From: Desulfobacteraceae bacterium
Lineage (GTDB): Bacteria > Desulfobacterota > Desulfobacteria > Desulfobacterales > JAABRJ01
Reading direction: 5' to 3'
NCBI GenBank assembly: GCA_022340425.1
Contig: JAJDNY010000034.1
Coordinates: 1-38,638 of the forward strand
DNA: 38,638 nucleotides
Shown here piece by piece: positions 9,618 through 32,010 of this stretch. Positions within the stretch are counted from its first letter, which is position 1, and every line of letters begins with the position of its first letter. A program made the position numbers and the translations under genes. The notes under the pieces were generated by a model. The model saw only the letters and a program-made list of their open reading frames with translations. It was not told the DNA's origin and made no database searches.

Positions 9618-9747
9618 CATCGCATTTTGACTCTCTGACGGCGACTTGCTCCGCCTGCCGTTGGGTGCGTTAAATTTTTCTTTGGTTATCAATGTGTTGG
9701 GACACCGATTGGTTTGGCGCCACCCCGGCGCGGGGGGCCGGGCAGGG

Positions 9748-9762
9748 TGGCACGGTCCTTGT
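9748..9762 (+). promoter_or_regulatory. sigma-54 (-24/-12) promoter of the gabT-aor unit
   Basis: TGGCACGGTCCTTGT matches the TGGCACG-N4-TTGC consensus except for T in place of the final C. The GG and GT are 12 apart. The predicted start is near 9774, giving a leader of about 190 bases. It is paired with the ATATGCA repeats upstream. Confidence 0.65.
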
Positions 9763-9900
9763 TTCAGAATTCTTTGGGTTTCCCGTGGATCACCATGCCG
9801 CCCCTGGGGGCCGACCTCATTCGCCGACAGGCATTTGGATCTCTTATCGGGATGATTCCGCACGCGGCCGGCGCGGCGGAGCCCCGGGCTGCAATTCAAC

Positions 9901-9921
9901 CGCGTTCGGCACGCGTTTTTT
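9901..9921 (+). terminator. weak terminator-like hairpin in the gabT leader
   Basis: CGCGT (9901-9905) pairs with ACGCG (9911-9915) across a five-base loop, followed directly by six T residues. The stem is only five base pairs, so it may be an attenuator or chance. It lies inside the predicted leader, 44 bases before the start codon. Confidence 0.3.
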
Positions 9922-9964
9922 CGCGTTCACCCTTCTGCTTCTACCCGTACAAGGAGGAAAAGAC

Positions 9965-11272
9965 ATGTCAAGCCCCCATGAAGACCTGCTGCAAAAGCGC
10001 AAGCAGCACGTCCCCCAAGGTCCGTTCAACATTACCCCCGCCTTCATCCGGGAGGCCAGGGGAGCGGTGATGATCGATGTCAACGGCCGTGAGTTGATCG
10101 ATTTCGCCGGCGGCATCGGCGTGCTCAACGTGGGACACTGCCACCCCAAGGTGGTGGACGCCATCAAGGATCAGGCCGAAAAATACATTCACACCTGCTT
10201 TCACGTGGTCATGTACGACCCCTATGTCGATCTGGCCAGCCGGCTCAACGCCCTGGCGCCGGGAGACTTTCCCAAAATGACCATGTTCGCCAACAGCGGG
10301 GCGGAGGCGGTTGAAAACGCCGTCAAGGCGGCCCGCTATGCCAAGAAACGGCCGGCCGTGATCGCCTTCGAGAACGCCTTCCACGGCCGGACCCTGCTGA
10401 CCATGACCCTGACCAGCAAGGTGAAGCCCTACAAGCTGGGCTTCGGACCGTTCGCCCCGGAAGTCTACCGCATGCCCTACGCCTATTGCTATCGCTGTCC
10501 CTTCGGCCTCACCTACCCCGCCTGTGAGGTGGCCTGCGCCGACTACCTCGAGGATTTCTTCATCAGCAACGTCGCCGCCGAAAGCACGGCGGCCGTGATC
10601 GTCGAGCCGATTCAGGGCGAAGGCGGGTTTATCACACCTCCGCCGGAATACTTCGCCAAGCTGCAGAGCATCTGTCAGAAATACGACATCGCCCTGATCG
10701 TGGACGAGGTCCAGTCCGGGGCCGGCCGGACCGGCAAGTTTTTTGCCATCGAGCACTGGGGGGTTGCGCCCGACCTGATCACCTGTGCCAAGAGCCTCGC
10801 CGCGGGGATGCCCCTCTCCGCGGTTATCGGGCGCCAGGATATCATCAACGCGCCCCATGTGGGCGGCCTTGGCGGCACCTATGCCGGCAACCCGGTTTCA
10901 TGCCGGGCGGCGCTGGCCGTGCTGGAAATTCTGCTGGAAGACGGGCTGCTGGAGCGCGCCCGGAGCCTGGGCGATACTCTGCTGGCCCGCTTCCGCGACC
11001 TGCAGCAAAGGCACGCCATCATCGGCGATGTGCGCGGCAAGGGCCCCATGCTGGCCCTGGAACTGGTCAAGGACCGCGAAACCAAAAAGCCCGCCACCGA
11101 CGAGGCCAAGAAACTGGTGCAGCTCTGTTATGACAAGGGGCTTGTTGTGCTTTCGTGCGGCAACTTCAGCAACGTCATCCGAACGCTGATGCCCTTTGTG
11201 ATCACCGATGAACAGCTGGAGCGCGGTTTGGCGATTCTGGAGGAGTCGTTGGATGAACTCGAGAAGGCCTGA
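9965..11272 (+). CDS. gabT: class III aminotransferase, GABA aminotransferase type (GabT)
   Basis: A 435-residue PLP-dependent omega-aminotransferase. It would transfer the amino group of GABA or a similar omega-amino acid to 2-oxoglutarate, giving succinate semialdehyde and glutamate. The PLP lysine is Lys276 (LITCAKSLAAG) and the pyridine-N aspartate is Asp247 (IVDEVQSGAGRTG). Residues equivalent to the GABA-binding Ile50, Arg141 and Glu211 of E. coli GabT are present as Ile51, Arg142 (FHGRT) and Glu214 (VIVEPIQGEGG). A four-cysteine insert (about 175-191) occurs in some homologues. The start at 9965 follows AAGGAGG. The AOR gene begins 30 bases downstream. The substrate could also be beta-alanine or 5-aminovalerate. 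Confidence 0.87.
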   Translation: MSSPHEDLLQKRKQHVPQGPFNITPAFIREARGAVMIDVNGRELIDFAGGIGVLNVGHCHPKVVDAIKDQAEKYIHTCFHVVMYDPYVDLASRLNALAPGDFPKMTMFANSGAEAVENAVKAARYAKKRPAVIAFENAFHGRTLLTMTLTSKVKPYKLGFGPFAPEVYRMPYAYCYRCPFGLTYPACEVACADYLEDFFISNVAAESTAAVIVEPIQGEGGFITPPPEYFAKLQSICQKYDIALIVDEVQSGAGRTGKFFAIEHWGVAPDLITCAKSLAAGMPLSAVIGRQDIINAPHVGGLGGTYAGNPVSCRAALAVLEILLEDGLLERARSLGDTLLARFRDLQQRHAIIGDVRGKGPMLALELVKDRETKKPATDEAKKLVQLCYDKGLVVLSCGNFSNVIRTLMPFVITDEQLERGLAILEESLDELEKA

Positions 11273-11302
11273 CGGGCCGCAGCGTTGACAGGAGGCACCG
11301 CC

Positions 11303-13060
11303 ATGAAGGGATTTTTTCAGCGAATCTTGCGGGTTGATCTGACAAACCGCTCAAGCCGGGAGGAGGCCCTGGATGAGGCGGTACTCGGCCGCTATCTGGG
11401 TGGCAAGGGGCTTGCCACCCATCTCCTGCTCCAGAACAACCCCGCCGGGGTGGACCCCTTTGCCCCGCAAAATCATATCGTCCTGGCGCTGGGGCCGGCC
11501 TCGGACACCCCGCTCTACGGCTCGTGCCGGCACGGCATTTTTTCCAAGTCGCCGCTCACCGGGCTTTACGCCGAGTCCTATTCCGGCGGCAGCCTGGCGA
11601 TCCCCATGAGCCGCACCGGCTATGACGCCGTCGTCATCGGCGGCGCCGCCGACCGGCCGCTGTGGCTGGAAATTTCCGATACGGCCGTGAACTTTCACGA
11701 CGCCGCCGATCTCTGGGGACGCGACACCTTCGAGACCGAGGCCGAGATCCGCAAGCGTGCGGCGGCCGAAAAGCCGGGCACGATGGTGATCGGCCCGGCC
11801 GGTGAAAACCGCGTGCGCATCGCGGTGGTCAAGAACGACGGCTGGCGGGTGGCCGGGCGCGGCGGCCTGGGGGCCGTCTTCGGGTCCAAAAACCTCAAGG
11901 CCGTCGCCTTTCACGGCAGCTGCAGCCGGCCTGTGGCGCAACCTGCGGCGCTCAAGCAGCACGCCCGGGACATGCTGGCGCGCCTCAAGGACCACGCGGC
12001 CACCCAGGCCTACCGCAACCTGGGGACCCCCATGATGGTCAACATCCTCAACAAGGCCGGCGCCTTTCCCACCCGCTACTGGTCCGAGGGGCGCTTTGCG
12101 CAGTTCGAAAGTATTAACGCCGACAGCATGCAGGCCCGCTTCAAGGTCAGCCCCAAGGCCTGCCGCACCTGCTTCATGGCCTGCGGCAAGCAGATCGAGG
12201 TCAAAGACGGGCGCCACCAGGGCCTGCGCCTGGAGGGCCCCGAGTACGAAACGATCTATGCCTTCGGCGGGCTCTGCATGATCGATCGCATCGATGAGAT
12301 CGCCTATCTCAACGACCTGTGCGACCGGCTGGGGATGGACACCATCTCGGCCGGCAACCTGGCGGCCTTCGCCATCGAGGCTTCGCGGCGCGGCCGGATT
12401 TCAGATGAGCTGAACTACGGCGATCCGGAGGCCGTGGCGGGGCTGCTGCGCAAGATGGTCAAGCGCGAGGGGCTCGGCGGCCTTCTGGCCGAGGGGATCA
12501 AGTCGGCCAGCGAGGAACTGGGCCTGGAGGACCTGGCGGTGCACGTCAAGGGGATGGAGCCGGCCGGCTACGACCCCCGGGTGCTCAAGGGCATGGGGCT
12601 GGCCTATGCGGTCAGCGACCGCGGGGCCTGCCACCTGCGCAGCACCTTCTACAAACCGGAGTTGACCGGCGTCATCCCTCCGGCTCAGATCGACGGCAAG
12701 GCCGAACTGTTTCTCGACTTCGAAGACCGCTGCACCCTGTTCGACTGCCTGATTCTGTGCCGCTTCTACCGTGATTTTTATCTCTGGGAGGCCCTCTCCG
12801 AGGCGATCGCCCTGACCACCGGCCTCACCCTGGACCAGGACGGGCTGAAGGCCGTGGCCGCCCGGGTGACCAACAACACCCGGCGCTTCAACCTGCGCGA
12901 GGGGCTGACCGCAGCCGACGACCGCCTGCCCCGGCGGCTGGTGCGCGACCCGCTCGCCTCCGGCGACGGGATCACCGCCGAGGAATTGGACCGCCTGGTT
13001 CAGGACTACTACCGCCTGCGGGGCTGGAGCCCGGAGGGGCGCCCGCCCGAAGCCGATTAA
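11303..13060 (+). CDS. aor: aldehyde:ferredoxin oxidoreductase (AOR family), copy 1
   Basis: A 585-residue tungsten (or molybdenum) bis-pterin enzyme that oxidises an aldehyde to a carboxylate with ferredoxin as acceptor. The [4Fe-4S] ligands are visible as Cys287, Cys290 and Cys294 (CRTCFMAC), with Cys486 as the fourth ligand. Pterin-domain motifs include YLGGKGLATHLL, GRGGLGAVFGSKNLKA (185-200) and RGACHLR (440-446). Length and order of motifs are normal for the family. The start at 11303 follows GGAGG at 11291-11295. Coupling to the GabT-type gene suggests that succinate semialdehyde, or the homologous semialdehyde, is the substrate. No AOR-type ferredoxin subunit gene lies adjacent, so a soluble ferredoxin would be the partner. 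Confidence 0.92.
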   Translation: MKGFFQRILRVDLTNRSSREEALDEAVLGRYLGGKGLATHLLLQNNPAGVDPFAPQNHIVLALGPASDTPLYGSCRHGIFSKSPLTGLYAESYSGGSLAIPMSRTGYDAVVIGGAADRPLWLEISDTAVNFHDAADLWGRDTFETEAEIRKRAAAEKPGTMVIGPAGENRVRIAVVKNDGWRVAGRGGLGAVFGSKNLKAVAFHGSCSRPVAQPAALKQHARDMLARLKDHAATQAYRNLGTPMMVNILNKAGAFPTRYWSEGRFAQFESINADSMQARFKVSPKACRTCFMACGKQIEVKDGRHQGLRLEGPEYETIYAFGGLCMIDRIDEIAYLNDLCDRLGMDTISAGNLAAFAIEASRRGRISDELNYGDPEAVAGLLRKMVKREGLGGLLAEGIKSASEELGLEDLAVHVKGMEPAGYDPRVLKGMGLAYAVSDRGACHLRSTFYKPELTGVIPPAQIDGKAELFLDFEDRCTLFDCLILCRFYRDFYLWEALSEAIALTTGLTLDQDGLKAVAARVTNNTRRFNLREGLTAADDRLPRRLVRDPLASGDGITAEELDRLVQDYYRLRGWSPEGRPPEAD

Positions 13061-13090
13061 AGGCTGGGTGGCCGCCTGGAGGCCGGTCGT

Positions 13091-13755: not shown

Positions 13756-13836
13756 ATGGTATCCAGCGCCGTGGCATTCTTTGCCCGCGCCATCCGATTC
13801 CCAAACGGCCCGCAGCCCCAAACCAGGAGGAGAAAA

Positions 13837-15186
13837 ATGGCACGCGACACCCGCTACGCCCTGCAGGAAGCCCAGCGCATGGTCGCGCTCATCACCACGC
13901 CCCACGAAAACGTCTGCCGGGAGGACTGTCAGCGGGTTGCCCGGGAGACCCACGAAAACTTCGCCAACCACATCAACAAGGGCTTTCTTGAATACCGCAA
14001 ATCGGTGACCGAGGCCAACGATTTCGCCGTGACCGAATGGGTCTGCGAGGGCTCGGTCCTGCGGGACGTTCTGGGGCGCGAGTACATCGACATCCTGGGC
14101 GGCTTCGGCATCTATTCACCGGGCATCCGGCACCCCAAGATCGTGGCGGCCGTCAAGGCCCAGCTGGACCGCAGCCCCCAGTACAGCCAGGAGATGCTGG
14201 ACCCCTTGCGCGCCCACCTCGCCAAGGTGCTGGCCTTTCTGACCCCCGGCGACATCCAGTACGGCTTTTTCGCCAACAGCGGGACCGAGGCGGTGGAGGG
14301 GGCCATGAAGCTGGCCAAGCTCTACACCGGCAAAAACGGTTTCATCGCCATGCTCAAGGGCTTTCACGGCAAAACCCTGGGCGCCCTCTCACTGATGGGC
14401 AAGTCGGTTTTTCGCGCGCCCCTGCTGCCGCTCCTGGAAGGGGTTCGGCACGTGCCCTTCGGCGATGCCGATGCCGTCGAGCGCCAGTTGGCGGCCGCCA
14501 AAGCGGTGGGAGACAAGATTGCCGCCGTCGTTGCCGAACCGATTCAAGGGGAGGCCGGGGCGATCGTGCCGCCCGACGATTTCTGGCCCCGCCTGCGGCA
14601 GATTTGCGACCACTACGAGGTGCTGCTGATCGCCGACGAGGTCCAGACCGGCCTCGGGCGCACGGGCAAGATTTTCGGTGTGGACCACTGGGATGTCGCG
14701 CCGGACATCATGTGCCTCGGCAAAGCCCTGGGCGGTGGGGTGGTGCCCATGTCGGCGTTTCTCTCGACCCCCAAGATCTGGTCCTGCTTGGAGCCCAACC
14801 CGTTCATGCACACCACCACCACCGGCGGCAACCCGCTGGCCTGCTCGGCGGCCCTGGCTCATATCGAAGTCATGCTGGAGGAGGACCTGCCGGGTCAGGC
14901 GGCCGAAAAGGGCGCCTATGTGCTGGACAAGCTTCGGGAGCTGCAGACCCGCTACCCCCACATCCTGCATGAGGTGCGCGGCAAGGGGCTTTTGATCGGA
15001 ATGGAGTTTCCCACCGACCAAACCGGCTACCAGGTGGCCTCCGGGCTTTTCAGCCGCAAGGTGATCACCGCCGGGACCCTCACCAACGCCAAGAACATCC
15101 GGATCGAGCCGGCGCTGAACATACCCTATAAAACCTTGGACGAGGTTTTAAACCGGCTGGAGGACACCTTCCGGAGCATTTCCTGA
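13837..15186 (+). CDS. patA: class III aminotransferase, putrescine aminotransferase type (PatA/YgjG-like)
   Basis: A 449-residue PLP enzyme closely resembling E. coli putrescine aminotransferase. The N-terminal extension with HINKGFLEYRKSV, the motif SQEMLDPLRAHLAK and the C-terminal AGTLTNAKNIRIEP are shared. The PLP lysine is Lys296 (IMCLGKALGGG) and the cofactor aspartate is Asp267 (IADEVQTGLGRTG). The FHGKT motif has Lys179 where GabT enzymes have the carboxylate-binding Arg, consistent with a diamine rather than an omega-amino acid. The predicted reaction is putrescine plus 2-oxoglutarate to 4-aminobutanal and glutamate; cadaverine is possible. The start at 13837 follows AGGAGG. It heads a seven-gene operon and is followed after 56 bases by the second AOR. 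Confidence 0.85.
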   Translation: MARDTRYALQEAQRMVALITTPHENVCREDCQRVARETHENFANHINKGFLEYRKSVTEANDFAVTEWVCEGSVLRDVLGREYIDILGGFGIYSPGIRHPKIVAAVKAQLDRSPQYSQEMLDPLRAHLAKVLAFLTPGDIQYGFFANSGTEAVEGAMKLAKLYTGKNGFIAMLKGFHGKTLGALSLMGKSVFRAPLLPLLEGVRHVPFGDADAVERQLAAAKAVGDKIAAVVAEPIQGEAGAIVPPDDFWPRLRQICDHYEVLLIADEVQTGLGRTGKIFGVDHWDVAPDIMCLGKALGGGVVPMSAFLSTPKIWSCLEPNPFMHTTTTGGNPLACSAALAHIEVMLEEDLPGQAAEKGAYVLDKLRELQTRYPHILHEVRGKGLLIGMEFPTDQTGYQVASGLFSRKVITAGTLTNAKNIRIEPALNIPYKTLDEVLNRLEDTFRSIS

Positions 15187-15242
15187 GCAGCCGCCCCGAC
15201 CAGTCTTCCCTTTCAACCCCTTTGCCCCAAAAGGAGGCCGCC

Positions 15243-16970
15243 ATGAAGGTTATTCGAGTTGACATGACCACCCAGACGATCACCGAGGAGGCGCCGCCGG
15301 CCAAGTACGCCGGTCTGGGAGGCCGTGGATTGACCTCCACCCTGATAGACGCCGAGGTGCCGGCCGCCTGCGATCCCCTGGGGCCGGAGAACAAGCTGAT
15401 TTTCGCCCCCGGCTACCTCAGCGGGACCACGCTGATCAACACCAGCCGCTTTTCGGTGGGCGCCAAGAGTCCGCTCACCGGCGGCATCAAGGAAAGCAAC
15501 GTCGGCGGCACCGTGGCCGCCGATCTGGCCCGATTGGGGATCACGGCGGTGGTCGTCGAAGGCCAGGCGCCGGCTGGGGCGCTGTATCTGCTCAAGATCG
15601 ATGCGGCCGCAAACGCGCAGCTGATCGACGCCGCCGCCTACAAGGGGATGCGCACCTACGGACTGGTCAAGGAGCTCAAGGCGGCCCAGGGTGAAAAAAA
15701 CAGCGTGACCGGGATCGGGCCCGCCGGCGAATGCCAGATGGCCATCGCCTCCATCCAAACCACCGATTTTGACGGCCGGCCCTGTCGCGCCGCCGGCCGC
15801 GGCGGGCTGGGGGCGGTCATGGGCGCCAAGGGGCTCAAGGCCCTGGTGGTGGACCAGGGCGGCAAAAACCCGGATCCCCTGGCGGACCCCGAGGCCTTCA
15901 AGGCCTCCGCCAAGGCCTATGCCCAGGCGGTCAAGGCCGACGAGTTCAGCGGCGAGATCCTGCCGGAGCTGGGAACCGCCGTCCTGGTGGGCCCCATCAA
16001 CGAGGCCGGCGCGCTGCCCACCCGCAACGCCACCCAGGGGCAGTTCGAGGGCGCGGAGAAGATCAGCGGTGAAACCCTGGCCCAAACCATCAAGGCCCGT
16101 GGCGGCAAAACCACCCACAAGGGCTGCGCCAACTGCATCATCAACTGTTCCAACGAATATGTGGACAAGGACGGCGGCTACGTGACCTCCTCGCTGGAGT
16201 ACGAAACCATCTGGTCCATGGGAGCCATGATCGGCAATGACGATCTGGACGCCATCGCCCGCCTGGATTTTCTCTGCGACGACATCGGGCTGGACACCAT
16301 CAGCACCGGGGTGGCCGTGGCGGTGGCGATGGATGCGGGCCACAAACCCTTCGGCGACGGCGCCGCCGCCATCGCCATGGTGGAGGAGATCGGCCAGGGG
16401 ACGGAATTCGGCAAGGTCCTCGGCGCCGGCCCGGCGGCGGTGGGCAAGCACTTCAATCACCACCGCGTGCCGGTGATGAAAAACCAGAGCATGGCGGCCT
16501 ACGACCCGCGCGCCCTGCAGGGCATGGCGGTGACCTACGCCACCAGCCCGATGGGCGGCGACCACACCGCCGGCTGGGTGGTGGACAAGAACCTGGAGGC
16601 CTTCGGCGGCACCCTGGACCGCTTTTCGGCCGAAGGCCAGGTGGAGGCCTCGCGCGACACCCAGATCCACATGGCCGCGGTGGACACCATGGGGCTCTGT
16701 GATTTCGCCCAGTCGGGCCTGGCCGCCGAGGGCGGCTTCGACCACTTCATGCGGATGATCAGCGCCAAGCTGGGGCGGCCGTTCGATTCGGCCGACTGGC
16801 AGGCTCTCGGCCGGCGGGTGCTCAAGGCCGAGCGCGACTTCAACCGGCGGGCCGGCTTCACCAACCAGGACGATCGCCTGCCGCGGATGTTCTACGAGGA
16901 GCCACTGCCGCCCCACAACAAGGTCGTGGTGGTCTCCGACGCGCAGATGGACGCGACCTTCGATTTTTGA
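15243..16970 (+). CDS. aor: aldehyde:ferredoxin oxidoreductase (AOR family), copy 2
   Basis: A 575-residue AOR-family tungsten/molybdenum enzyme, divergent from copy 1. The [4Fe-4S] ligands are Cys295, Cys298 and Cys302 (CANCIINC) plus Cys486 in DTMGLCDF, the classic AOR fourth-ligand motif. Pterin-binding motifs include GLGGRGLTSTL, GRGGLGAVMGAKGLKA (185-200) and SPMGGDHTAG (435-444). The start at 15243 follows AAGGAGG at 15231-15237. Its position just after the PatA-type gene suggests that the aldehyde made by that enzyme (4-aminobutanal) is its substrate, producing GABA and reduced ferredoxin. Its stop lies next to a MoaD/ThiS-like gene that could serve cofactor assembly. Confidence 0.92.
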   Translation: MKVIRVDMTTQTITEEAPPAKYAGLGGRGLTSTLIDAEVPAACDPLGPENKLIFAPGYLSGTTLINTSRFSVGAKSPLTGGIKESNVGGTVAADLARLGITAVVVEGQAPAGALYLLKIDAAANAQLIDAAAYKGMRTYGLVKELKAAQGEKNSVTGIGPAGECQMAIASIQTTDFDGRPCRAAGRGGLGAVMGAKGLKALVVDQGGKNPDPLADPEAFKASAKAYAQAVKADEFSGEILPELGTAVLVGPINEAGALPTRNATQGQFEGAEKISGETLAQTIKARGGKTTHKGCANCIINCSNEYVDKDGGYVTSSLEYETIWSMGAMIGNDDLDAIARLDFLCDDIGLDTISTGVAVAVAMDAGHKPFGDGAAAIAMVEEIGQGTEFGKVLGAGPAAVGKHFNHHRVPVMKNQSMAAYDPRALQGMAVTYATSPMGGDHTAGWVVDKNLEAFGGTLDRFSAEGQVEASRDTQIHMAAVDTMGLCDFAQSGLAAEGGFDHFMRMISAKLGRPFDSADWQALGRRVLKAERDFNRRAGFTNQDDRLPRMFYEEPLPPHNKVVVVSDAQMDATFDF

Positions 16971-16981
16971 CGGTGCCCGCG

Positions 16982-18568: not shown

Positions 18569-18660
18569 GCCGGCACCGGGGCCCGGCTGGGTGAAAATGG
18601 ACCGCAGCGGGGGCCGGTGAGCCTCCGCCCGGTGAAGGGGGGCCTCCCATCGAAGCGACC

Positions 18661-23259: not shown

Positions 23260-23282
23260 AAGCCCACATCGCCGGTGGGCTT
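23260..23282 (-). terminator. terminator at the stop codon of the second Lrp gene
   Basis: On the minus strand AAGCCCAC and GTGGGCTT (plus-strand arms 23260-23267 and 23275-23282) form an 8-bp stem with a seven-base loop followed by U residues. The stem begins at the stop codon of the regulator gene. Confidence 0.65.
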
Positions 23283-23737
23283 CACGGCGGGGTTTCCCAA
23301 TCGTAGCGGTTTTTAATCAACTCCAAGCGCATGGAGGTTTTCACGCCGGTGACGCCGTCGATGCGGGTGATGCGGTCCATCAGGGCCCGCAGTTCTTGCT
23401 GGGATTTGAAGCTGAACTCCAGGTCGAAATCCACCGCACCGGTCAGCCGGGCGATGTACCAGATCCCCTGCACCCCTTTGAGGGCCTCGGCCACCTGCTG
23501 CGCTTTTTGAATGTCCACGTGCAGCTTCAGGTTGCCGACGATACCGTAGCCCAGTTTGCTGCGGTTGCCCACCGCCACGATCTGGATGAAATCCTCCGCC
23601 AAGAGGCGCTTGAGACGTTTGCGAACGGTGGTTTCCGAAATGCCCAGCTGCTTGGCAATTTCCGTGTTGGGCAAGCGCCCGTCGGTTTTGAGAAGCTGGA
23701 TGATGCGGGTGTCGGTCTCGTCGATGGGGGGTGACAT
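23282..23737 (-). CDS. Lrp/AsnC-family regulator, copy 2
   Basis: A 151-residue regulator with a winged helix-turn-helix (TDTRIIQLLKTDGRLPNTEIAKQLGISETTVRKRLKRL) and a C-terminal RAM ligand-binding domain. GAGGAG precedes the ATG. It is paralogous to the regulator at 13091-13561, and both end in the related sequence IKNRxDWxT. It is convergent with the patA operon and divergent from the nitrilase operon, across a 391-bp region holding several dyads. It probably responds to an amino acid or amine and controls one or both neighbours. Which one is not shown by the sequence. Confidence 0.9.
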   Translation of the reverse strand: MSPPIDETDTRIIQLLKTDGRLPNTEIAKQLGISETTVRKRLKRLLAEDFIQIVAVGNRSKLGYGIVGNLKLHVDIQKAQQVAEALKGVQGIWYIARLTGAVDFDLEFSFKSQQELRALMDRITRIDGVTGVKTSMRLELIKNRYDWETPP

Positions 23738-24128: not shown

Positions 24129-25043
24129 ATGGACCGGATAGCCGTTGTGCAAGACTTCTGCTTCCCGGGCGCCAAGGCGGGCAATCTCGCCAAAGCCGGC
24201 CGCTGGGTGGCCGAGGCGGCCGGCCAGGGCGCTCAGCTGGTGCTTTTCCCGGAGCTTTATCTGACCGGCTTCGGATTCGAAGGCCCCACCGCCCCCGGGT
24301 TGGCCGAAAACCTGGACGGGGCGGCGATGGATTTCCTGAAAACCCTGGCACACCGTCACCGGCTGTGGATCCTGATGGGATTTCCGGAACGTGATCCCGT
24401 CTCCGGGCGCGTCTTCAATTCCCTGGTGTGCCTGACGGACCAGGGTGCGGTGGCCGGTTGCTATCGTAAAGTCCATCTTTTCGACCGGGAGCAGGCCGTT
24501 TTTGACCGCGGCGACGCGTCGGTGGTGATCGACACGCCCCTCGGGCGCGCGGGGCTGCTGATCTGCTACGACATCGAATTCCCGGAGTTGGCCCGCTGCC
24601 TGGCCCTTCAGGATGCCCGTCTGCTGTTGGTTGCCAGCGCCAATATGGTGCCCTGGTGCCCTCAGCAGGAAATTTTCGCCCGGGCGCGGGCCGCAGAAAA
24701 TCAGGTTTTTCTGGCACTGGCCAACCGCGTCGGCCAGGAGGCAGGCTTCAGGTTTTGCGGCCGCAGCATCTGCGTGGATCCTTTGGGGCGGGTCACCGCC
24801 CGGGCCAACGCCAGAGGCCCCCAACTTTTGGTTGCTGAGTTGGCACCGGAGCACGGCCGGCCGCCTCAGGGGGCGGCGGTGGATTATTTGCGCGACCGGC
24901 GACCCGAAGTCTACGCCGCCTTGTCGGTGGCCTTGCAAACGAGACGGCTGACTGCCATCGCTTCCGGCAGCCCCGCGGCGGACTTTGTGGCCGCCACGGA
25001 AACCCAGACATCGAGATCACAAACGGAGGAGGGTGAAACATGA
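24129..25043 (+). CDS. carbon-nitrogen hydrolase (nitrilase superfamily)
   Basis: A 304-residue cytoplasmic hydrolase with the nitrilase-superfamily triad visible as Glu42 (FPELYLTGF), Lys114 (YRKVHLF) and Cys146 (ICYDIEFPE). Members hydrolyse amides, carbamoyl compounds or, less often, nitriles. The size and lack of extra domains fit an amidase or N-carbamoyl hydrolase type, such as a polyamine N-carbamoylputrescine or beta-ureidopropionase-like enzyme, but specificity cannot be assigned. Its stop overlaps the start of the next gene by four bases (25040-25043), coupling it to a periplasmic binding protein. The hydrolase therefore probably acts on what that importer brings in. Confidence 0.85.
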   Translation: MDRIAVVQDFCFPGAKAGNLAKAGRWVAEAAGQGAQLVLFPELYLTGFGFEGPTAPGLAENLDGAAMDFLKTLAHRHRLWILMGFPERDPVSGRVFNSLVCLTDQGAVAGCYRKVHLFDREQAVFDRGDASVVIDTPLGRAGLLICYDIEFPELARCLALQDARLLLVASANMVPWCPQQEIFARARAAENQVFLALANRVGQEAGFRFCGRSICVDPLGRVTARANARGPQLLVAELAPEHGRPPQGAAVDYLRDRRPEVYAALSVALQTRRLTAIASGSPAADFVAATETQTSRSQTEEGET

Positions 25044-26272
25044 GGTGTAAAGCGCTGTGGACGGTGTTCGGGATGACCCTGGTGTTGTCTTGCTGTTTAG
25101 CTGTGGCCGCGGCCCAGACCCCGATTCTGGTCGGCGCGCCGCTGCCGCTGACCGGCCCCTACGCCAGTGACGGCGAGCAGATGAAGATGGCGCTGGAAAT
25201 GGCGGTGGCCGAAAAGAACGCCGCCGGCGGCCTGTTGGACCGGCCGTTGGAACTCAGGTTCGGGGATGTGGGCGGTTTGGAGGCGGAAAAGATCAAGGCC
25301 GTGGGAGAGCGGCTGGTGGGCGCGGGGGTCGATGTGGTCATCACCGGTTATGATGACGGCGGGGTGGACACCAAAGTTTTCGGCCAGTACGACATCCCTT
25401 ACCTGCACGGCAACGCCATGACCCTCTGCACCGAGCCGGTGGCACGGGAACCCGAAAAGTACTGGAACTGCTTCCAGTATACCTTCAACGATACCGACTA
25501 CGGCAAGAACGCGGCCGACAATTTGTTCAAGGTCCATACCGAAATGGGCTGGACCCCGCCCAACAAAAAGGTGGCCGTTATCAAGGTCGATTACGCCTAC
25601 AACGTCATGCCGGCCGACGAGTTCGTGCGCAGGGTCGAAAAGATGGGCTACGAGGTTGTGGTCAATGAAACCACGCCTTTTGGCGTGGCCGAATGGGGTC
25701 CAATCCTCTCCCGGATCGAGTCCAGCCAGCCGGCCTACGTGACCTTCTGGAATCTGGATCCCACCGATGCGGCCCGGTTCATGAAGCAGTTTGTCGAGCG
25801 CTTCGGCGAAGACGGTCTCGATGCGCTGGTCTACATGCAGTACACGCCTTCGATTCCCGAGTTTTTGGAGCTGGCCGGCAAAGCGGCCGACGGCCTGCTT
25901 TGGGTGGCGGGCGCCGACGAGTTCGGGCCGAAATTCGAATCCTACAAGCAGCGCTGGGTGGCGCGTTTCAAAAAGGACCCAGCCGGTTTCTACTCGGTTG
26001 TCACGCGCGATGCCTTCGACATCTGGGTCCAGGCGGTGGAGCGCGCCGGCTGTGTGGATTGCTACCGGGACGTCGCCAGGCTGATCCGCGAATCTGCCCA
26101 TGACGGCATGGCCGGTCTCTTCGTCTTCAACCCCGTCGATCAGTCGGCCATTCCGGGCGAGTACCTGATGCCGCTCATTTGGCACCAGATTTGGGACGGC
26201 AAGAACATTCAGGTGGATCCCCAGCGCTTCAAGAAAGCGCCCTATCAGAAGCCCCCCTGGGTTAAGAAATGA
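25040..26272 (+). CDS. periplasmic substrate-binding protein of a Liv-type ABC importer
   Basis: A 410-residue type I binding protein. A signal peptide spans about residues 1-25 (WTVFGMTLVLSCCLAVAAA). The Leu-Ser-Cys inside it is a poor lipobox, so a soluble periplasmic protein is favoured. The domain opening ILVGAPLPLTGPYASDGEQM is typical for the family. A four-cysteine arrangement (TLCTEP, YWNCFQY, AGCVDCY) could form disulfides. It is only loosely similar to the LivK at 6151-7389, implying a different ligand. The context (nitrilase before, amidohydrolase after) suggests an amide, ureide or related nitrogen compound. Confidence 0.88.
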   Translation: MRCKALWTVFGMTLVLSCCLAVAAAQTPILVGAPLPLTGPYASDGEQMKMALEMAVAEKNAAGGLLDRPLELRFGDVGGLEAEKIKAVGERLVGAGVDVVITGYDDGGVDTKVFGQYDIPYLHGNAMTLCTEPVAREPEKYWNCFQYTFNDTDYGKNAADNLFKVHTEMGWTPPNKKVAVIKVDYAYNVMPADEFVRRVEKMGYEVVVNETTPFGVAEWGPILSRIESSQPAYVTFWNLDPTDAARFMKQFVERFGEDGLDALVYMQYTPSIPEFLELAGKAADGLLWVAGADEFGPKFESYKQRWVARFKKDPAGFYSVVTRDAFDIWVQAVERAGCVDCYRDVARLIRESAHDGMAGLFVFNPVDQSAIPGEYLMPLIWHQIWDGKNIQVDPQRFKKAPYQKPPWVKK

Positions 26273-26447
26273 TGAACCGCTGAAAGTACCTCGCCGGACG
26301 GATTTTCAAAAGGTGCCGGGTGGCTGCGCACCCCCCTCGCCCGAGGCGGGCTGAAGGTGCGCCGCAGCGACGCGGCGATGCAGCCCCGCATGGAAGGCGG
26401 GCCTTTTGGGTAGCCGGCGAGGAATCACCTTTTCTTTTCCCGCTTCC

Positions 26448-26478
26448 GCCGGCGAAGGCCTTCCAGCCTTTCGCCGGC
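26448..26478 (+). other. hairpin between the binding-protein and ATPase genes
   Basis: GCCGGCGAAGG (26448-26458) pairs with CCTTTCGCCGGC (26467-26478) with a one-base bulge and an eight-base loop. No T-run follows. Its position after the binding-protein gene matches the hairpins after livK, suggesting mRNA stabilisation or partial attenuation so that the binding protein exceeds the membrane parts. It overlaps the region just upstream of the ATPase start. Confidence 0.5.
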
Positions 26479-26501
26479 CCGCGGCCCCCAAGGCGACAGG
26501 C

Positions 26502-27227
26502 ATGATCCTGGAGACCCAAAACCTGTCCAAGCAGTTTGGCCGCCTCCGGGCACTGGAGGCGGTGGACCTCGCCGTGGCGCCCGGCGAGATTTTCGGGATC
26601 GCGGGCCCCAACGGGGCCGGTAAATCCACCCTTTTCAACGTTATCGCCGGTACTTTTCCGCCCACCTCCGGGCGGGTGCTCTTCAAAGGCCGGGAGATCA
26701 CCCGGCTGCCGGCCCACCGCATCTGCCATCTGGGCTTGGCGCGGACCTTTCAGATCCCCCAGACCTTCCAAACCCTAAGCGTGTATGACAACATCCGGGT
26801 GGGAGCCACCTTCGGCAACAGCGGCCGCGGGCGACGGGAACACATCGCGGCGGTGATGGATTTTCTCGGGCTGACACCCCACCGGGACGACATCGCCCGC
26901 AATCTCGATCTCTACACCATCAAACAGGTCATGGTGGCCGCGAGCCTCGCGACCGGCTGCCAGCTTCTGATGCTCGACGAACCCTTGGCAGGCCTCTCCA
27001 TGACCGAAATCAGCGAATTTATCGCCATGGTCCGCAGGATCAACCGCGACATGGGCATCACCATCCTCATGATCGAACACCTTCTGGATACCCTGATCGA
27101 GGTTTCCCACCGGATGCTGATTCTGCATAACGGTGCGGTGATCTACACCGGCGATCCCGAAGGGGTGCGCCAGGACCCCAAGGTCGTCGAGGTCTATCTC
27201 GGCCCGGGGGCGGAGGTGGGGCCATGA
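26502..27227 (+). CDS. Liv-type ABC transporter ATPase (LivG-like), second system
   Basis: A 241-residue ABC ATPase with Walker A GPNGAGKST, Walker B LLMLDEP, D-loop AGLS and switch ILMIEH. The expected signature LSGGQ is replaced by DLYTIKQVMVA, a strong deviation that leaves the C-loop without the usual Ser-Gly-Gly. The frame is open upstream, but the start at 26502 (MILETQNLSKQFG) matches the family's N-terminus. An AAGG-containing site precedes it. It follows the binding-protein gene by 229 bases and overlaps the next ATPase gene by four bases. Confidence 0.88.
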   Translation: MILETQNLSKQFGRLRALEAVDLAVAPGEIFGIAGPNGAGKSTLFNVIAGTFPPTSGRVLFKGREITRLPAHRICHLGLARTFQIPQTFQTLSVYDNIRVGATFGNSGRGRREHIAAVMDFLGLTPHRDDIARNLDLYTIKQVMVAASLATGCQLLMLDEPLAGLSMTEISEFIAMVRRINRDMGITILMIEHLLDTLIEVSHRMLILHNGAVIYTGDPEGVRQDPKVVEVYLGPGAEVGP

Positions 27228-27952
27228 TCGCCAAGACACCCCGGGGGGTGGCGGAGCTGGAGGTGAGCGCCCTCGTGAGCCGTTACGGCGAGATGCCGGT
27301 TCTGCGGCGGGCCTCGCTCCAGGTCTTTCAGGGGGAGGTGGTGGCCCTTTTCGGACCCAACGGCCACGGCAAATCGACCCTGCTCAAGACGATTGCTGGG
27401 ATTCACCCGGCCACGGGCGGCACCATCCGCTACCGTGGGCGGGACATTTCCGCCATGGCCAGCGAAAAAATCGTCGAGATGGGGGTGGCCTACATTCCCG
27501 AGGCCCGCAACCTGTTTCCCGAAATGACGGTCCTTGAGAACCTGACCCTGGGAGCCTACAATCGGAGGGCGCGCCGGGAGCTGGCGCAAACCCTGGCCTT
27601 CGTGTTGGCACTTTTTCCTCGCCTCGAAGAGCGCAAAGACCAGATCGCGGCCACCCTGAGCGGCGGTGAAAGCCGGATGCTGGCGGTCGGGCGCGGGCTG
27701 ATGAGCAAAGCCTCGCTGCTGTTGATCGACGAGCCGTCCATTGGGCTTTCGCCCCTGATGAAACAGACGGTCTTCGATGCCATCGGCAAGATTCGCCGTG
27801 AAACCGGCAGCGCCATTTTGATCGTGGAGCAGGAGGTCGACTACCCGCTGCGCCTGGCCGACCGCATTTACCTGCTCAAGAACGGGCAGGTCGTGCTGGA
27901 GAAGGCCGCCGGCGAAATCAGCAAGGCCGAGATCGAAGCTTCCTATTTTTAA
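27224..27952 (+). CDS. Liv-type ABC transporter ATPase (LivF-like), second system
   Basis: A 242-residue ABC ATPase. Walker A is GPNGHGKST (His in place of the usual Ala), the signature LSGGESRM is canonical, Walker B reads LLLIDEPS, and ILIVEQEV contains the switch region. The ATG overlaps the previous stop (27224-27227). With the upstream ATPase it should form a heterodimer in which one composite site has a canonical signature and the other a degenerate one. The ATPases precede the permeases here, unlike the livKHMGF order in the other system. Confidence 0.88.
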   Translation: MIAKTPRGVAELEVSALVSRYGEMPVLRRASLQVFQGEVVALFGPNGHGKSTLLKTIAGIHPATGGTIRYRGRDISAMASEKIVEMGVAYIPEARNLFPEMTVLENLTLGAYNRRARRELAQTLAFVLALFPRLEERKDQIAATLSGGESRMLAVGRGLMSKASLLLIDEPSIGLSPLMKQTVFDAIGKIRRETGSAILIVEQEVDYPLRLADRIYLLKNGQVVLEKAAGEISKAEIEASYF

Positions 27953-28132
27953 CGGTCCGGCCGAAAACGGCAATCCCTGCGTCGCGCACCCCGGCCAACC
28001 CCGCGCATTGCGCTGGGTGGTGGGGGAAAACGGTTTGCTGCGAAATTCACATACCGCGCCAGCCCAGTTGAGGTGACCCTCATCTTACATCCAGGCCGGT
28101 CGCGGTCCCCTCAGGCCACAGGGGGGTCCATC

Positions 28133-28138
28133 GGGAGG
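28133..28138 (+). promoter_or_regulatory. Shine-Dalgarno in front of a non-standard ATC start
   Basis: GGGAGG sits six bases before ATC at 28145, and the codons that follow match the conserved LivH N-terminus. The nearest in-frame canonical start, GTG 28073, has only a weak GAG just before it. Confidence 0.5.
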
Positions 28139-28144
28139 TGTACC

Positions 28145-29014
28145 ATCAAGGATCTGCTCTACGCCCTGGTAAGCGGACTGATATCCGGCTCCCTATACGC
28201 CAGTATGGCCTTGGGGCTGGCGATTGTCTACGGCGTCATCCATGTTTTCAATTTCGGCCATGGCATCGTGGCCGTCATCGGGGGGTATCTGACCTGGCTG
28301 CTGCTCAGCCAGACGGGAATGGGGCTGATCCCGGCAGTGGTCTGCATGCTGGTGATGATGTTCTTTTTCGGTCTGCTGATTTTCAAACTGACCCTCAACC
28401 CGCTGCTTAAAACCCCCAACTGGGAGTTTTCCACCATCATCTTCCTCCTGGGGCTCGGAATCCTGTTGGAAAACCTGACGCTGCAGGCCTTCGGCCCGCG
28501 GGTCAAGTACATCCCACCCTTCTTCGAGGGCAGTCTCAAACTGGGCTTTCTGCGGGTCAACTGGCACGAAATCAGTATCATCGTCATCGTGCTGGTTTTC
28601 GTGGTGCTGCTCAATCTTTTTCTGAAGCGTACCTGGTTTGGCAAGGCCATGCGGGCCGTGGCGCAGGACATGGACGGCGCGCGCATCGTGGGCATCAATA
28701 TCCAGCAGACCTTCGGTTTTGCCTTTGCTCTTGCCACCGCCGTGACCGGCTTCAGCGGAGTGCTGCTGGGAACCAAGTACTACATGACCCCCCACATCGG
28801 CTGGGATTGGATGGTCAAGGGGTTCGTGATCATCGTACTCGGCGGCTTGGGCAGCGCCAGCGGAGCCATATACGCGGCCCTCATCATGGGCATTATCGAA
28901 GCCTATGTCACCCTGTTGCTGGGTTCACTTTGGGTATGGCCCGCCTGGTTTGTTCTTTTTGTGGTTATTCTGCTGCTGCGGCCCCAGGGGTTGGTCGGCG
29001 GCCGGACGCTTTGA
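28145..29014 (+). CDS. Liv-type ABC permease (LivH-like), second system
   Basis: An inner-membrane permease of about 289 residues with the LivH opening KDLLYALVSGLISGSLYASM, the FNFGHGIVAVIGGYL motif and the coupling loop AVAQDMDGARIVGIN. About eight helices are visible. The best ribosome-binding site (28133-28138) points to an ATC codon at 28145. The only standard in-frame start is GTG 28073, which would add 24 non-conserved residues. Either a rare ATC start is used, GTG 28073 is used, or the base is a variant or error of ATG. The stop overlaps the next permease start (TGATG). Confidence 0.85.
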   Translation: MKDLLYALVSGLISGSLYASMALGLAIVYGVIHVFNFGHGIVAVIGGYLTWLLLSQTGMGLIPAVVCMLVMMFFFGLLIFKLTLNPLLKTPNWEFSTIIFLLGLGILLENLTLQAFGPRVKYIPPFFEGSLKLGFLRVNWHEISIIVIVLVFVVLLNLFLKRTWFGKAMRAVAQDMDGARIVGINIQQTFGFAFALATAVTGFSGVLLGTKYYMTPHIGWDWMVKGFVIIVLGGLGSASGAIYAALIMGIIEAYVTLLLGSLWVWPAWFVLFVVILLLRPQGLVGGRTL

Positions 29015-30003
29015 TGGGGGATCAAAAGATCGGGATGCACGGGATGACCGACAGTTTGAACTGGAAGAGGATCGCGATTGGCGCCGGGCTGCTGCTGATG
29101 GCCGTTTATCCGCTGATTCACGGCGACCCATACATCATGCACATTTTTATTCTCTTTTTCATCTGGTCGCTGGTGGCCTCCAACTGGAATTTGCTGATGG
29201 GCTATGCCGGGATCTTTTCCCTGGGCAACATCGCCTTTCTGGCCATCGGGGCCTATACCTCCGGGATTCTGTCCAAAAACCTCAGCTGGTCGCCGTGGCT
29301 GTGCATCTTACTGGGGGGAATCGCCAGTATGGCGCTGGTCACCGTATTTATCGGGCTGCCGGCCTTGCGCCTTAGCGGGATTTACATCGCGCTGCTGTCC
29401 CTTATTTTTGCCGATTCCCTGCCCACCATCCTGACCCAGACCCGCAGCCTCACCGGCGGTGCCATGGGGCTGCATGACGTGCCGCCGCTTTTTGAAGGCA
29501 TCCTGCGCATCCACTCCTATTACATCTGCTTCGCCCTCTTTTTGGTAATGCTGACCATCATCTACCGGACCATTCATTCCGCCACCGGACTGGCCTTCGT
29601 GGCCCTGCGGGATTCACGCGAATTCGCCCGATCCCTGGGCATCAGCGAGTATCGCGAAAAGCTCAAGGTGTTTGCGCTGGTATCTTTCCTGACCGGCATT
29701 GTGGGGGGCTTTTACGTCCACTACCTGGGCGATATCTCGCCAACCACCCTGACCATCGAACCCTTTCTGCTGACCATTGCGATGATGGAAATGGGGGGCA
29801 TCGGCCGCTTCCCCGGAGCCGTACTGGGGGCGGTCATCATCGTTTTCGGCAACGAGTTTCTGCGTCTGGCCGGCACGCTGCGTCTGGCCTTGTTGGGCGC
29901 GCTGATTTGCGCCATCATTCTTTTTTTCCCAGGCGGCCTGATGCAGCTGGTGGACTGGATTGACACCCGCATCGCGGCCCGGCGGCGCCGGGCGCACGGC
30001 TGA
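29014..30003 (+). CDS. Liv-type ABC permease (LivM-like), second system
   Basis: A 329-residue permease with LivM features: NWNLLMGYAGIFSLGNIAFLAIGAYTSG, the coupling loop LRDSREFARSLGISEYR, and MMEMGGIGRFPGAVLGA near the C-terminus. About nine helices are visible. The start at 29014 shares the A of the preceding stop (TGATG), giving translational coupling. Internal ATGs at 29035 and 29044 are alternatives. It completes the second ABC importer together with the binding protein, two ATPases and the LivH-like permease. Confidence 0.9.
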   Translation: MGDQKIGMHGMTDSLNWKRIAIGAGLLLMAVYPLIHGDPYIMHIFILFFIWSLVASNWNLLMGYAGIFSLGNIAFLAIGAYTSGILSKNLSWSPWLCILLGGIASMALVTVFIGLPALRLSGIYIALLSLIFADSLPTILTQTRSLTGGAMGLHDVPPLFEGILRIHSYYICFALFLVMLTIIYRTIHSATGLAFVALRDSREFARSLGISEYREKLKVFALVSFLTGIVGGFYVHYLGDISPTTLTIEPFLLTIAMMEMGGIGRFPGAVLGAVIIVFGNEFLRLAGTLRLALLGALICAIILFFPGGLMQLVDWIDTRIAARRRRAHG

Positions 30004-30059
30004 AACCCGGCTGCACACTTTCCAGGGTGGCCGATCTTCAGCGCCCCAAGGAGCCATGC

Positions 30060-31598
30060 ATGAACCATCGACTGATCCTCACCGCGGCCAATATCATCAC
30101 CATGACGGCCGAGCGGGACCGGGCCGAGGCGCTCGCCATTGAAAACGGGCGCCTGGTGCGGGTCGGCGCCCGGGACGCCGTGGGGGATCTCATCCAGCAG
30201 GGCTGGCCGGTGCTGGATCTTCAGGGCCGGACCGTTCTGCCGGGGTTTATCGACACCCATCAGCACCTGATGTTGACCGGCCTGCTGGCGACCGCGATTG
30301 CGCTGGATGAGGTCGGCTGCCTGGACGAGGTCCTGGAGCGGGTGGCCGCCGGCAGCCGGGAGACGCCGTCCGGGGCCTGGGTGCGCGCGGGCTATCTCAA
30401 CGAACAGCGCTTGCGCGAAAAACGGATGCCCACCCGGGAGGAGTTGGACCGCGTGTGCAGCGACCGACCGGTTTTCGTATTGCACACCACCGCCCACATG
30501 TGCGCCTTCAACACCCGCGGCCTGGAGCTGCTGCAGCTCCCCGAGAGTCTGGAGGGTGTCGACCGTAAGGGGGGGCGGCCCACCGGGGTTGTGCGGGATC
30601 CGGGGATCTTGACCCACGTTCATCCGGTCATGGCCCGGCTCATCCCCGAGGCCGTCAAGGTGGCGGCCATGGAGGTGGCCGGCCGCAAGGCCCTCGAAAA
30701 AGGCATCACAACCCTGCATGCACTCGACGGCGGCGATCTCGGGCCCGGGGAGACCCAGATCATCATGGCCCACCGGGAGCAGCTGCCGGTGCGCGTCGTG
30801 TGCTACAACCAAAACATGGATCTGGAGGAAGTCCGCCGGCTGGGACTGCCCCGGGTGGGCGGCTGCATTTGTGCCGACGGCGCCTTCGAGGCGCACACGG
30901 CGGCCCTATTCGAGCCCTACACTGATCAGCCCGGCAATTACGGCGCCCTGACCTACAGCCAGGAGGTCATGGATCGCTTTGTTTTGGAGGCCCACCGCGA
31001 AGGCCTGCAGATCGCGGTCCACTGTGAATCCGAGCGTGCCATCGAACAGGTCCTGGCGGCGATGGAAAAGGCCCTGCGCGCCCATCCGCGTTCGGACCAC
31101 CGCCATCGCATCGAACACCTGGAGCTGCCCACCTACAACCAGATCGCGCGCATGGCCGCCGCCGGCATCATGGCGGCCATGCAGCCCGCCTTTATCCCGG
31201 CCTTCATTTGCAGCCAGGGAATGCAGGGCTATGCCCCCCTGCTGGGGACGACCCGGCTGCGGCGGCTGCATCCCTACCGGACCCTGCGCGACCATGGCAT
31301 CCCGGTCTGCGGCGGTTCCGACAGCCCCGTGACGCCTTACGGCCCCCTTGCCGGCGTCCAGGCGGCGGTCCTGCACCCCAACCTCGAAGAGCGTATTTCG
31401 CGCCACGAGGCGCTGGAAATGTTCACCGTCGCGGCGGCCTGGAGCGCCTTCGAGGAAGCCCAAAAGGGGAGCCTGGCGCCGGGCAAGCTGGCCGACCTGG
31501 TGGTTTTGGAGCGGGACCCCTTTGCGGTGGCGGCCGATGAAATCGCGGCGATCCGCGTGGATCGGGTGTTTGTGGGAGGCCGTCAATATGAAATTTGA
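30060..31598 (+). CDS. metal-dependent amidohydrolase (YtcJ/amidohydrolase 3-like)
   Basis: A 512-residue amidohydrolase-superfamily enzyme. Metal-binding positions are visible as His67 and His69 (DTHQH), later His residues in VHCESE and HRIEHLE, and the catalytic Asp in GGSDSPV. The C-terminal strand region KGSLAPGKLADLVVLERDP is the usual closing sandwich of cytoplasmic amidohydrolases. No signal peptide is present. The ATG at 30060 follows AAGGAG; an upstream extension lacks conservation. YtcJ-like enzymes have diverse, mostly unknown substrates. The location 56 bases after the permease genes implies action on the imported compound or its nitrilase product. Confidence 0.87.
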   Translation: MNHRLILTAANIITMTAERDRAEALAIENGRLVRVGARDAVGDLIQQGWPVLDLQGRTVLPGFIDTHQHLMLTGLLATAIALDEVGCLDEVLERVAAGSRETPSGAWVRAGYLNEQRLREKRMPTREELDRVCSDRPVFVLHTTAHMCAFNTRGLELLQLPESLEGVDRKGGRPTGVVRDPGILTHVHPVMARLIPEAVKVAAMEVAGRKALEKGITTLHALDGGDLGPGETQIIMAHREQLPVRVVCYNQNMDLEEVRRLGLPRVGGCICADGAFEAHTAALFEPYTDQPGNYGALTYSQEVMDRFVLEAHREGLQIAVHCESERAIEQVLAAMEKALRAHPRSDHRHRIEHLELPTYNQIARMAAAGIMAAMQPAFIPAFICSQGMQGYAPLLGTTRLRRLHPYRTLRDHGIPVCGGSDSPVTPYGPLAGVQAAVLHPNLEERISRHEALEMFTVAAAWSAFEEAQKGSLAPGKLADLVVLERDPFAVAADEIAAIRVDRVFVGGRQYEI

Positions 31599-32010
31599 AG
31601 GCGGTTTAGAAAGTCCAATTTCGGCGTTGCGCCGCATGGCGATGCTGCTGCTCCTGTGGTTTCTGGCCGGGGCGGTTGGCTGGATCCCGGTGGCTTTGGC
31701 CGGAACCACCGCAGGCTGCGGCGGCCTGCAGCTGGAGCCCAGGGCGCCGGCCTATTATATCTACCCGGAGTATGTCGCCGTCTGTCCCCGGGGCGGGGCC
31801 GGGATCCGCTGCTACCGTTATCATTGGGACTGGGTCTGTGAAAAAGGTGACACCCTTTACTGGGACCGCCGCCTGGAGGCCGCCGCGCATGCCGCCTGCG
31901 GCTGCCCGCCGCCCGCCGGGGTGGCCTCGGCCTCCCCGGCGGTATCGGCCAAGCCCCGCGAAACGCTTTTCGGCGGGGCGCGGGAATTGTCAAATGGGCC
32001 GCCAGATTGA
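31588..32010 (+). CDS. small secreted Cys-rich protein of unknown function
   Basis: A 140-residue protein with an N-terminal hydrophobic segment (about 17-38, ending VALAG) that looks like a signal peptide with a long n-region. A start at Met17 would give a more ordinary one. The mature part has six cysteines (44, 66, 75, 84, 104, 106) and aromatic clusters (YYIYPEY, CYRYHWDWVC), suggesting disulfides or a metal site. GGGAGG lies nine bases before the ATG, and the gene overlaps the end of the amidohydrolase gene by eleven bases. No family is recognised. The last 35 residues are low-complexity. Confidence 0.6.
   Translation: MKFEGGLESPISALRRMAMLLLLWFLAGAVGWIPVALAGTTAGCGGLQLEPRAPAYYIYPEYVAVCPRGGAGIRCYRYHWDWVCEKGDTLYWDRRLEAAAHAACGCPPPAGVASASPAVSAKPRETLFGGARELSNGPPD

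Follow-up and report, generated by a model that had tools for sequence, protein, structure and literature searches.

A conserved Liv-type importer cassette with an amidohydrolase and a six-cysteine protein, linked to polyamines by genome context in Desulfobacterales-type bacteria

What does a Liv-type ATP-binding cassette (ABC) importer take up when its genes are accompanied by two hydrolases and a small cysteine-rich protein? The question is raised by a stretch of 38,638 nucleotides (nt) from a Desulfobacteraceae bacterium (assembly GCA_022340425.1), here called the window, which comprises positions 1-38638 of contig C34 in a genome (G000) of 3.97 Mb and 209 contigs. At 24129-32010, all on the plus strand, it encodes a nitrilase, a periplasmic binding protein, LivG, LivF, LivH, LivM, an amidohydrolase that we call AH3 and a small protein that we call CysR; the nitrilase, Liv-type importer, amidohydrolase and cysteine-rich secreted protein named by an earlier sequence-only reading are thus all present, and in one cassette. 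This cassette is linked to polyamines by genome context, and we give a somewhat better than even chance (roughly 0.57) to the reading that it takes up and hydrolyses a cationic amide or ureide of putrescine and so supplies a route from putrescine to 4-aminobutyrate (GABA). The genes of the cassette and its divergent neighbour are:

23282..23737, minus strand: Lrp/AsnC-type regulator, divergent (PF13404/PF01037)
24129..25043, plus strand: carbon-nitrogen hydrolase of the nitrilase superfamily (PF00795, 2e-56)
25040..26272, plus strand: periplasmic binding protein, Peripla_BP_6, 3h5l-like subfamily (PF13458, 2e-37)
26502..27227, plus strand: LivG/UrtD-type ATPase (PF00005); orthologous loci 65-72% identical
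27224..27952, plus strand: LivF/UrtE-type ATPase (PF00005); orthologous loci 64-72% identical
28073..29014, plus strand: LivH-type permease, start codon uncertain (PF02653, 2e-38); orthologous loci 68-76% identical
29014..30003, plus strand: LivM-type permease (PF02653, 5e-31, scored on the longer frame 28807-30003); orthologous loci 68-83% identical
30060..31598, plus strand: AH3, Amidohydro_3 (YtcJ-like) metal-dependent amidohydrolase (PF07969, 6e-83)
31588..32010, plus strand: CysR, 140-amino-acid six-cysteine protein, probably secreted

Conservation was followed in 389 genomes drawn from the order, the window's own included. Binding proteins at least 65% identical to that of the window occur in six of these (own included), the next best match being 38% identical, and in five loci (the window and those numbered L007, L008, L117 and L118) the block running from the binding protein through LivG, LivF, LivH, LivM and AH3 to CysR is intact and in the same order. 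At the sixth locus, L119, the contig ends within LivH, and the rest of that genome yielded no CysR. Identities to the window amount to 65-77% for the binding protein, 61-68% for AH3 (four cassette loci) and 36-50% for CysR, and the nearest named genomes with the cassette are two metagenome-assembled genomes of Desulfobacterales bacterium, CP070697.1 (L007) and CP070746.1 (L008). Because the seven-gene block recurs in order in four further loci, and in L119 up to the contig end, the cassette is more than a chance arrangement. Apart from CysR, the single components are of known kinds; among the titles and abstract beginnings listed for the gene combination, none describes this cluster.

The link to polyamines comes from the surroundings of the five related loci. 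L118 and L119 carry, directly upstream of the binding protein and behind the same divergent Lrp gene, an AguB that exceeds the family cut-off (453.8 and 459.1 vs 410.25 bits); in L007 and L008 AguB-like enzymes below the cut-off (307 and 317 bits) stand directly upstream of the binding protein, and a full PotABCD-like set lies upstream, with an agmatinase in L008 as well. In L117, PotA-, PotB- and PotC-like genes, 72-77% identical to those of L008, precede the cassette in the nitrilase's stead, and CysR is followed downstream by a PotD-like gene, the agmatine deiminase AguA (581 bits vs 382) and AguB (462 vs 410). With one threshold for all (identity of 40% or more across 60% of the query) and with AguA, AguB, agmatinase, PotD and the putrescine aminotransferase PatA as test genes, AguB or AguB-like enzymes were found in or beside the cassette at 5/5 related loci and PotD at 3/5, as against 0/20 for any tested gene at loci whose binding protein is a more distant relative; the corresponding Fisher p of 1.9e-5 is overstated, because the five loci are orthologous and 9/20 controls come from one genome (G002). 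Among the amides, ureides and carbamoyl compounds that had been guessed from the sequence as substrates, carbamoyl-polyamines come close to what the orthologous loci contain (AguB or AguB-like in five of five, Pot-type genes in three, agmatine deiminase in one, agmatinase in one).

AH3 matches PF07969 with 280.3 bits, compared with a gathering score of 29.7. The metal site of Amidohydro_3 enzymes follows the pattern HxH, His, His, Asp; H67, H69, H321, H353 and D421, invariant in 6/6 aligned rows, fit this pattern. By eye the N-terminus does not resemble a signal, and the protein is probably cytoplasmic. No close characterised relative was found, the nearest solved structures being the uncharacterised 3icj and 3igh. 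Among 297 genomes of the phylum there is one relative at about 47-48% identity (L081), all others lying at or below 36%; at 20 loci of such relatives, some of them on short contigs, no binding protein or Liv genes were found, and two of the 20 carry a PotA-like ATPase. According to PMC13081902, characterised members of PF07969 include NfdA, aminoacylases, AtzC, cytosine deaminase, PhnM and a metallo bile salt hydrolase. Since several of these cleave amide bonds, amide cleavage lies within the range of the family.

CysR begins with a hydrophobic N-terminus and has cysteines at positions 44, 66, 75, 84, 104 and 106, the last five of which are invariant in 5/5 rows, the first being shifted in L117 and L118. 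Neither Pfam nor NCBIfam gave a match at E 0.001 (PHROGs and PADLOC lay outside the search), its profile had no match to Protein Data Bank (PDB) sequences at E 1, and a structure model of moderate quality (predicted local distance difference test, pLDDT, 69.9; predicted template modelling score 0.54) gave 66 matches to PDB folds at E 10, none of them at E 0.001. The gene is present in six of the 389 genomes, five times with a complete cassette and once, in G496, as remnants; neither of two weak matches outside the order (E 0.002 and 0.006) was borne out by tblastn at 1e-4. Export of CysR is probable, and its site of action would then be the periplasm, at or close to the substrate or the binding protein.

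The nitrilase is the variable part of the cassette. It matches PF00795 with 191.7 bits (Pfam cut-off 23.2), and of the Glu-Lys-Cys catalytic triad of the nitrilase superfamily it has E42, K114 and C146, invariant in 9/9 aligned rows, which places it in that superfamily. It is 28-32% identical to the five AguB-type enzymes of the related cassettes, and among the 297 genomes of the phylum only its own gave a match at E 1e-45. As the slot ahead of the binding protein holds AguB or an AguB-like enzyme in 4/5 related cassettes, another nitrilase subfamily occupies that place in the window. It clusters with six others, the DavA-like enzymes of L113, L115 and L142, the agmatinase-linked ones of L112 and L116, and one of unknown context, L048 in G002. 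Beside the L113 nitrilase is encoded a protein whose match to the L-amino acid oxidase/monooxygenase 3we0 reaches 9e-270, the neighbour in L115 is 79% like that protein, and the L142 nitrilase adjoins a flavin adenine dinucleotide-dependent oxidoreductase, by annotation alone. The notion of the sequence-only reading that both hydrolases act stepwise on one compound finds no support here, because the nitrilase varies among loci and that of the window lies far below the AguB cut-off.

The importer has the five-component Liv-type subunit set (Peripla_BP_6, two ATPases, two BPD_transp_2 permeases), and the solved structure nearest to its binding protein is 3h5l (3h5l_A, 2.8e-44). Scores fall below every curated Liv cut-off (LivK 40/477, LivG 166/362, LivF 210/441, LivH 102/379, LivM 116/366 bits) and every Urt cut-off (UrtA 30/493, UrtB 134/250, UrtC 84/296, UrtD 168/304, UrtE 197/286), and assignment as a urea or branched-chain system by these models was rejected accordingly. 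The ATPase-before-permease order, which had been called unusual, is normal in this binding-protein subfamily: of 21 loci scanned, 14 show the complete set of four Liv-type genes beside the binding protein, and 13 of these place ATPases before permeases, the exception being the most distant locus, L009 (24%). The subfamily is strongly expanded in G002 (L040, L043-L050), with 17 matches, 28-38% identical among the 12 listed; a further Liv-type cluster at L040, without a match to the window's binding protein, has the permeases first. The window itself holds a second Liv-type importer on the minus strand (2693-7563), in which, leaving aside the intervening frame 4125-5126, a binding protein and a permease precede two ATPases; a sigma-54 activator is encoded nearby at 7767-9548.

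On plasmids, where six annotated alphaproteobacterial loci were examined among the 25 listed of 298 records with a match, the order binding protein, two ATPases, two permeases recurs with a carbon-nitrogen hydrolase gene nearby in 6/6. These hydrolases are a nitrilase with an agmatinase (L112), an amidase with an agmatinase (L114), an amidase with a histone deacetylase (HDAC)-type enzyme (L147), an amidase with a nitrile hydratase (L148), an amidase (L149) and, beside a class III aminotransferase, an HDAC-type amidohydrolase (L146); no AH3 or CysR was found among the adjoining genes listed. Both agmatinases pass TIGR01230 (196 for L112 and 185 for L114, vs 174). The L146 enzyme is nearest to the histone deacetylase-like amidohydrolase HDAH and to pesticide-amide hydrolases, acetylpolyamine amidohydrolase being further off, and for this reason it is not by itself evidence for polyamines.

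One feature of the binding protein bears on the charge of its ligand. The pair D105-D106 is conserved in 6/6 orthologues, where the equivalents in the amino-acid-binding 3ipc are Ala-Asn; in amino-acid binders, neutral residues of this loop hold the carboxylate of the amino acid. Judged from the sequence, the Asp pair would suit a cationic ligand.

Further upstream, an amine-catabolism island at 9692-20937 encodes the four enzymes below, about 7-14 kb from the cassette, as well as a Glu/Leu dehydrogenase-type enzyme and a PPDK_N protein:

9692..11272, plus strand: GABA aminotransferase GabT (TIGR00700, 555 bits vs a cut-off of 506.65); probable downstream step
11297..13060, plus strand: aldehyde:ferredoxin oxidoreductase (AOR)-type enzyme (PF01314/PF02730); candidate 4-aminobutanal oxidase
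13756..15186, plus strand: PatA (PRK11522, 671 bits vs a cut-off of 612); probable downstream step
15222..16970, plus strand: second AOR-type enzyme (PF01314, 4.8e-83; PF02730, 2.7e-60)

PatA has the putrescine aminotransferase 4uox as its best PDB match (2e-143), and reaches 511 of the 659 bits set by TIGR03372. In G496, a single frame of 1054 amino acids (L171, 6195-9359) fuses PatA (642 bits vs 612) to an AOR-type enzyme, whose half is 34% identical to the window's AOR at 11297-13060; this points to oxidation of the aminotransferase product, 4-aminobutanal, by the AOR. The same genome, which was not among the nine matched in the binding-protein search, carries an AH3 of intact length (511 amino acids, 65% identical) and a CysR remnant beside a broken Pot-type transporter and the fusion, and a second CysR fragment adjoins a PotD-like gene. 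This locus is supportive and not decisive, because G496 is 9% contaminated and lies in 1620 contigs.

Within the cassette, the nitrilase and binding protein overlap by 4 nt, LivG and LivF by 4 nt, LivH and LivM by 1 nt (the LivM ATG overlaps the LivH stop) and AH3 and CysR by 11 nt; gaps of 229 nt follow the binding protein, 120 nt LivF (the LivH start being uncertain) and 56 nt LivM. Coupling such as the sequence-only reading noted for the nitrilase and binding protein is not continuous along the cassette, given the gaps of 229 and 120 nt. The longest gap (26273-26501) holds a G+C-rich hairpin at 26385-26401, and perhaps separates expression of the binding protein from that of the rest. The scan for terminators found 12 where 11.9 were expected, and the promoter scan found 8 against 2.1 expected; as these are scattered over both strands and mostly within genes, they were not used as evidence, although one of them falls between the Lrp gene and the nitrilase (24005-23978, minus strand). 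The divergent Lrp/AsnC-type gene, 391 nt upstream, keeps its position in L118 (55% identical) and L119 (52%), whereas L007, L008 and L117 yielded none; it is probably the regulator of the cassette. Two UspA-like genes (named by eye), at 22744-23136 and 32192-32584 and 54% identical over 130 amino acids, flank the Lrp-cassette unit, and the former matched no NCBIfam family model at 1e-20. Beyond them, an asparaginase N-domain protein (32705-33190, 161 amino acids, PF00710) stands beside a PRK05313 family hypothetical protein (33219-34625).

Taken together, the conserved cassette and the context of its orthologous loci support the uptake-and-hydrolysis module proposed from the sequence. In the route we favour, the importer would use ATP to bring in a cationic putrescine derivative (N-acyl-, N-carbamoyl- or agmatine-derived), with CysR possibly acting before or together with ligand capture by the periplasmic protein. 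AH3 would cut a C-N bond of the imported compound in the cytoplasm, and a leftover carbamoyl or amide group would be removed by a carbon-nitrogen hydrolase, which would be AguB or an AguB-like enzyme at the five related loci and a DavA-like omega-amidase here. The resulting putrescine would pass through putrescine aminotransferase, aldehyde:ferredoxin oxidoreductase and GABA aminotransferase, all of which are encoded in the window.

A number of observations weigh against a putrescine conjugate as the cargo. None of the tested polyamine genes was found within 10 kb of the window's binding protein; PatA, separated from the cassette by other genes, lies some 9 kb upstream of it, and the genome's own AguA-AguB pair (63% and 66% identical to that of L117) and PotD/PotC-like genes are on other contigs, C136 and C169. 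Three of the five genomes with a related cassette (G055, G456, G468) yielded no agmatine deiminase, and agmatinase-family genes were found neither in G468 nor in the window's own genome, G000. The window's nitrilase scores 112.9 bits with the AguB model TIGR03381 (cut-off 410.25) and is set apart from the AguB clade by a branch with support 98/94, a value from one tree alone; joining it to six AguB or AguB-like rows gave a p of 0.013 in the approximately unbiased test, run after earlier trees had been seen and with one AguB of the window's own genome in the tree. Its identification as AguB was rejected on these grounds. The substrate class of AH3 is drawn from linkage only, the Asp pair is replaced by Asn/Glu in 3h5l and by Gly-Gly in the alphaproteobacterial L112 and L114, and structure prediction for the binding protein from three sequences reached a mean pLDDT of 43.7. 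With the L113 enzyme as query, moreover, no homologue of the lysine monooxygenase DavB was found in G000 (0 matches at E 0.001), and a nitrilase working in a complete DavBA route of its own genome was rejected as well.

The grouping of the nitrilase with L113 and L115, whose neighbours are the 3we0-like enzyme and its 79% relative, speaks for the import of omega-amino acids or amino amides (GABA, 5-aminovalerate, 5-aminovaleramide), with a DavA-like nitrilase turning an omega-amide into an omega-amino acid for GabT, and AH3 being a separate salvage enzyme. GabT is encoded in the window, and homologues 45-60% identical to it occur near distant relatives of the binding protein within the order, at 4/21 loci (L042, L050, L057 and L120, of which L042 and L120 are from one genus), a linkage that the putrescine reading can claim as well. 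This GabT linkage of the wider family, together with the lack of the Asp pair in 3h5l, shifts the odds slightly towards such an import and away from the putrescine reading. We nevertheless regard it as unlikely, as AH3 and CysR accompany the transporter at 5/5 complete loci while the nitrilase changes, the partner in related loci is AguB or AguB-like, and G000 yielded no lysine-monooxygenase homologue. The constancy of AH3 and CysR also counts against an ordinary importer of branched-chain or general amino acids with unrelated hydrolases as neighbours; such a system would agree with the Liv-type fold family and subunit set, with the name of 3h5l ('putative Branched-chain amino acid ABC transporter') and with the Lrp/AsnC-type regulator, yet the curated Liv/Urt scores are far below cut-off (40 of 477 bits for the binding protein), and it appears quite unlikely.

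An improbable further alternative is that AH3 opens the ring of a cyclic ureide in the manner of a hydantoinase, after which the nitrilase or AguB would hydrolyse the N-carbamoyl amine. A cyclic amidohydrolase and an N-carbamoylase are a known pairing, and AguB, which related loci carry within the cassette or next to it, is an N-carbamoyl-amine hydrolase; against this, AH3 scores far below cut-off for D-hydantoinase (31/393 bits), allantoinase (44/358) and dihydroorotase (22/535) among the 25 of 37 families listed, and the window's nitrilase lies outside the AguB clade.

Returning to the putrescine reading, we would tentatively go further, and suppose, at less than even odds, that the cassette represents a Liv-family importer dedicated to conjugated polyamines, AH3 a new metal-dependent polyamine-conjugate hydrolase and CysR a new periplasmic accessory family, together channelling conjugated polyamines to GABA in Desulfobacterales-type bacteria. 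Known bacterial polyamine uptake is mostly by Pot-type importers and antiporters, and a polyamine-linked Liv-type importer would widen the range of cargo ascribed to Liv-type binding proteins. It would also provide a substrate class for one branch of the large and mostly uncharacterised PF07969, and single out CysR as a small secreted protein family for testing. Desulfobacterales-type bacteria are mostly anaerobic sulfate reducers; if the hosts are anaerobic, as these relatives suggest, the cassette hints at how such bacteria use polyamine conjugates.

Compared with known systems, the importer shares its subunit set (binding protein, ATPases and permeases) with the Liv ABC importers of the hydrophobic amino acid uptake transporter (HAAT) family and with Urt, and differs from them in falling short of the curated models and in placing ATPases before permeases. 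Closer in gene order, and in having a carbon-nitrogen hydrolase gene nearby, are the 3h5l-like plasmid transporters (6/6 loci), although their binding proteins are 28.5-31.5% identical and have, in the aligned L112 and L114, Gly-Gly for the Asp pair. A likeness to the DavB-DavA lysine 2-monooxygenase route is seen in the best-ranked plasmid relative of the nitrilase (L113, 41%), which adjoins the 3we0-like enzyme, whereas relatives reach 41-44% identity at most and no DavA of proven function is among the sequences compared. From the AguA-AguB pathway with Pot-type uptake, the window departs in its nitrilase subfamily and in having its own AguAB and PotD/PotC on other contigs, while the related loci resemble it in their AguB or AguB-like enzymes (all five), Pot-type genes (three) and AguA (one). 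AH3, finally, shares its Pfam family with NfdA, aminoacylases and metallo bile salt hydrolase (PMC13081902).

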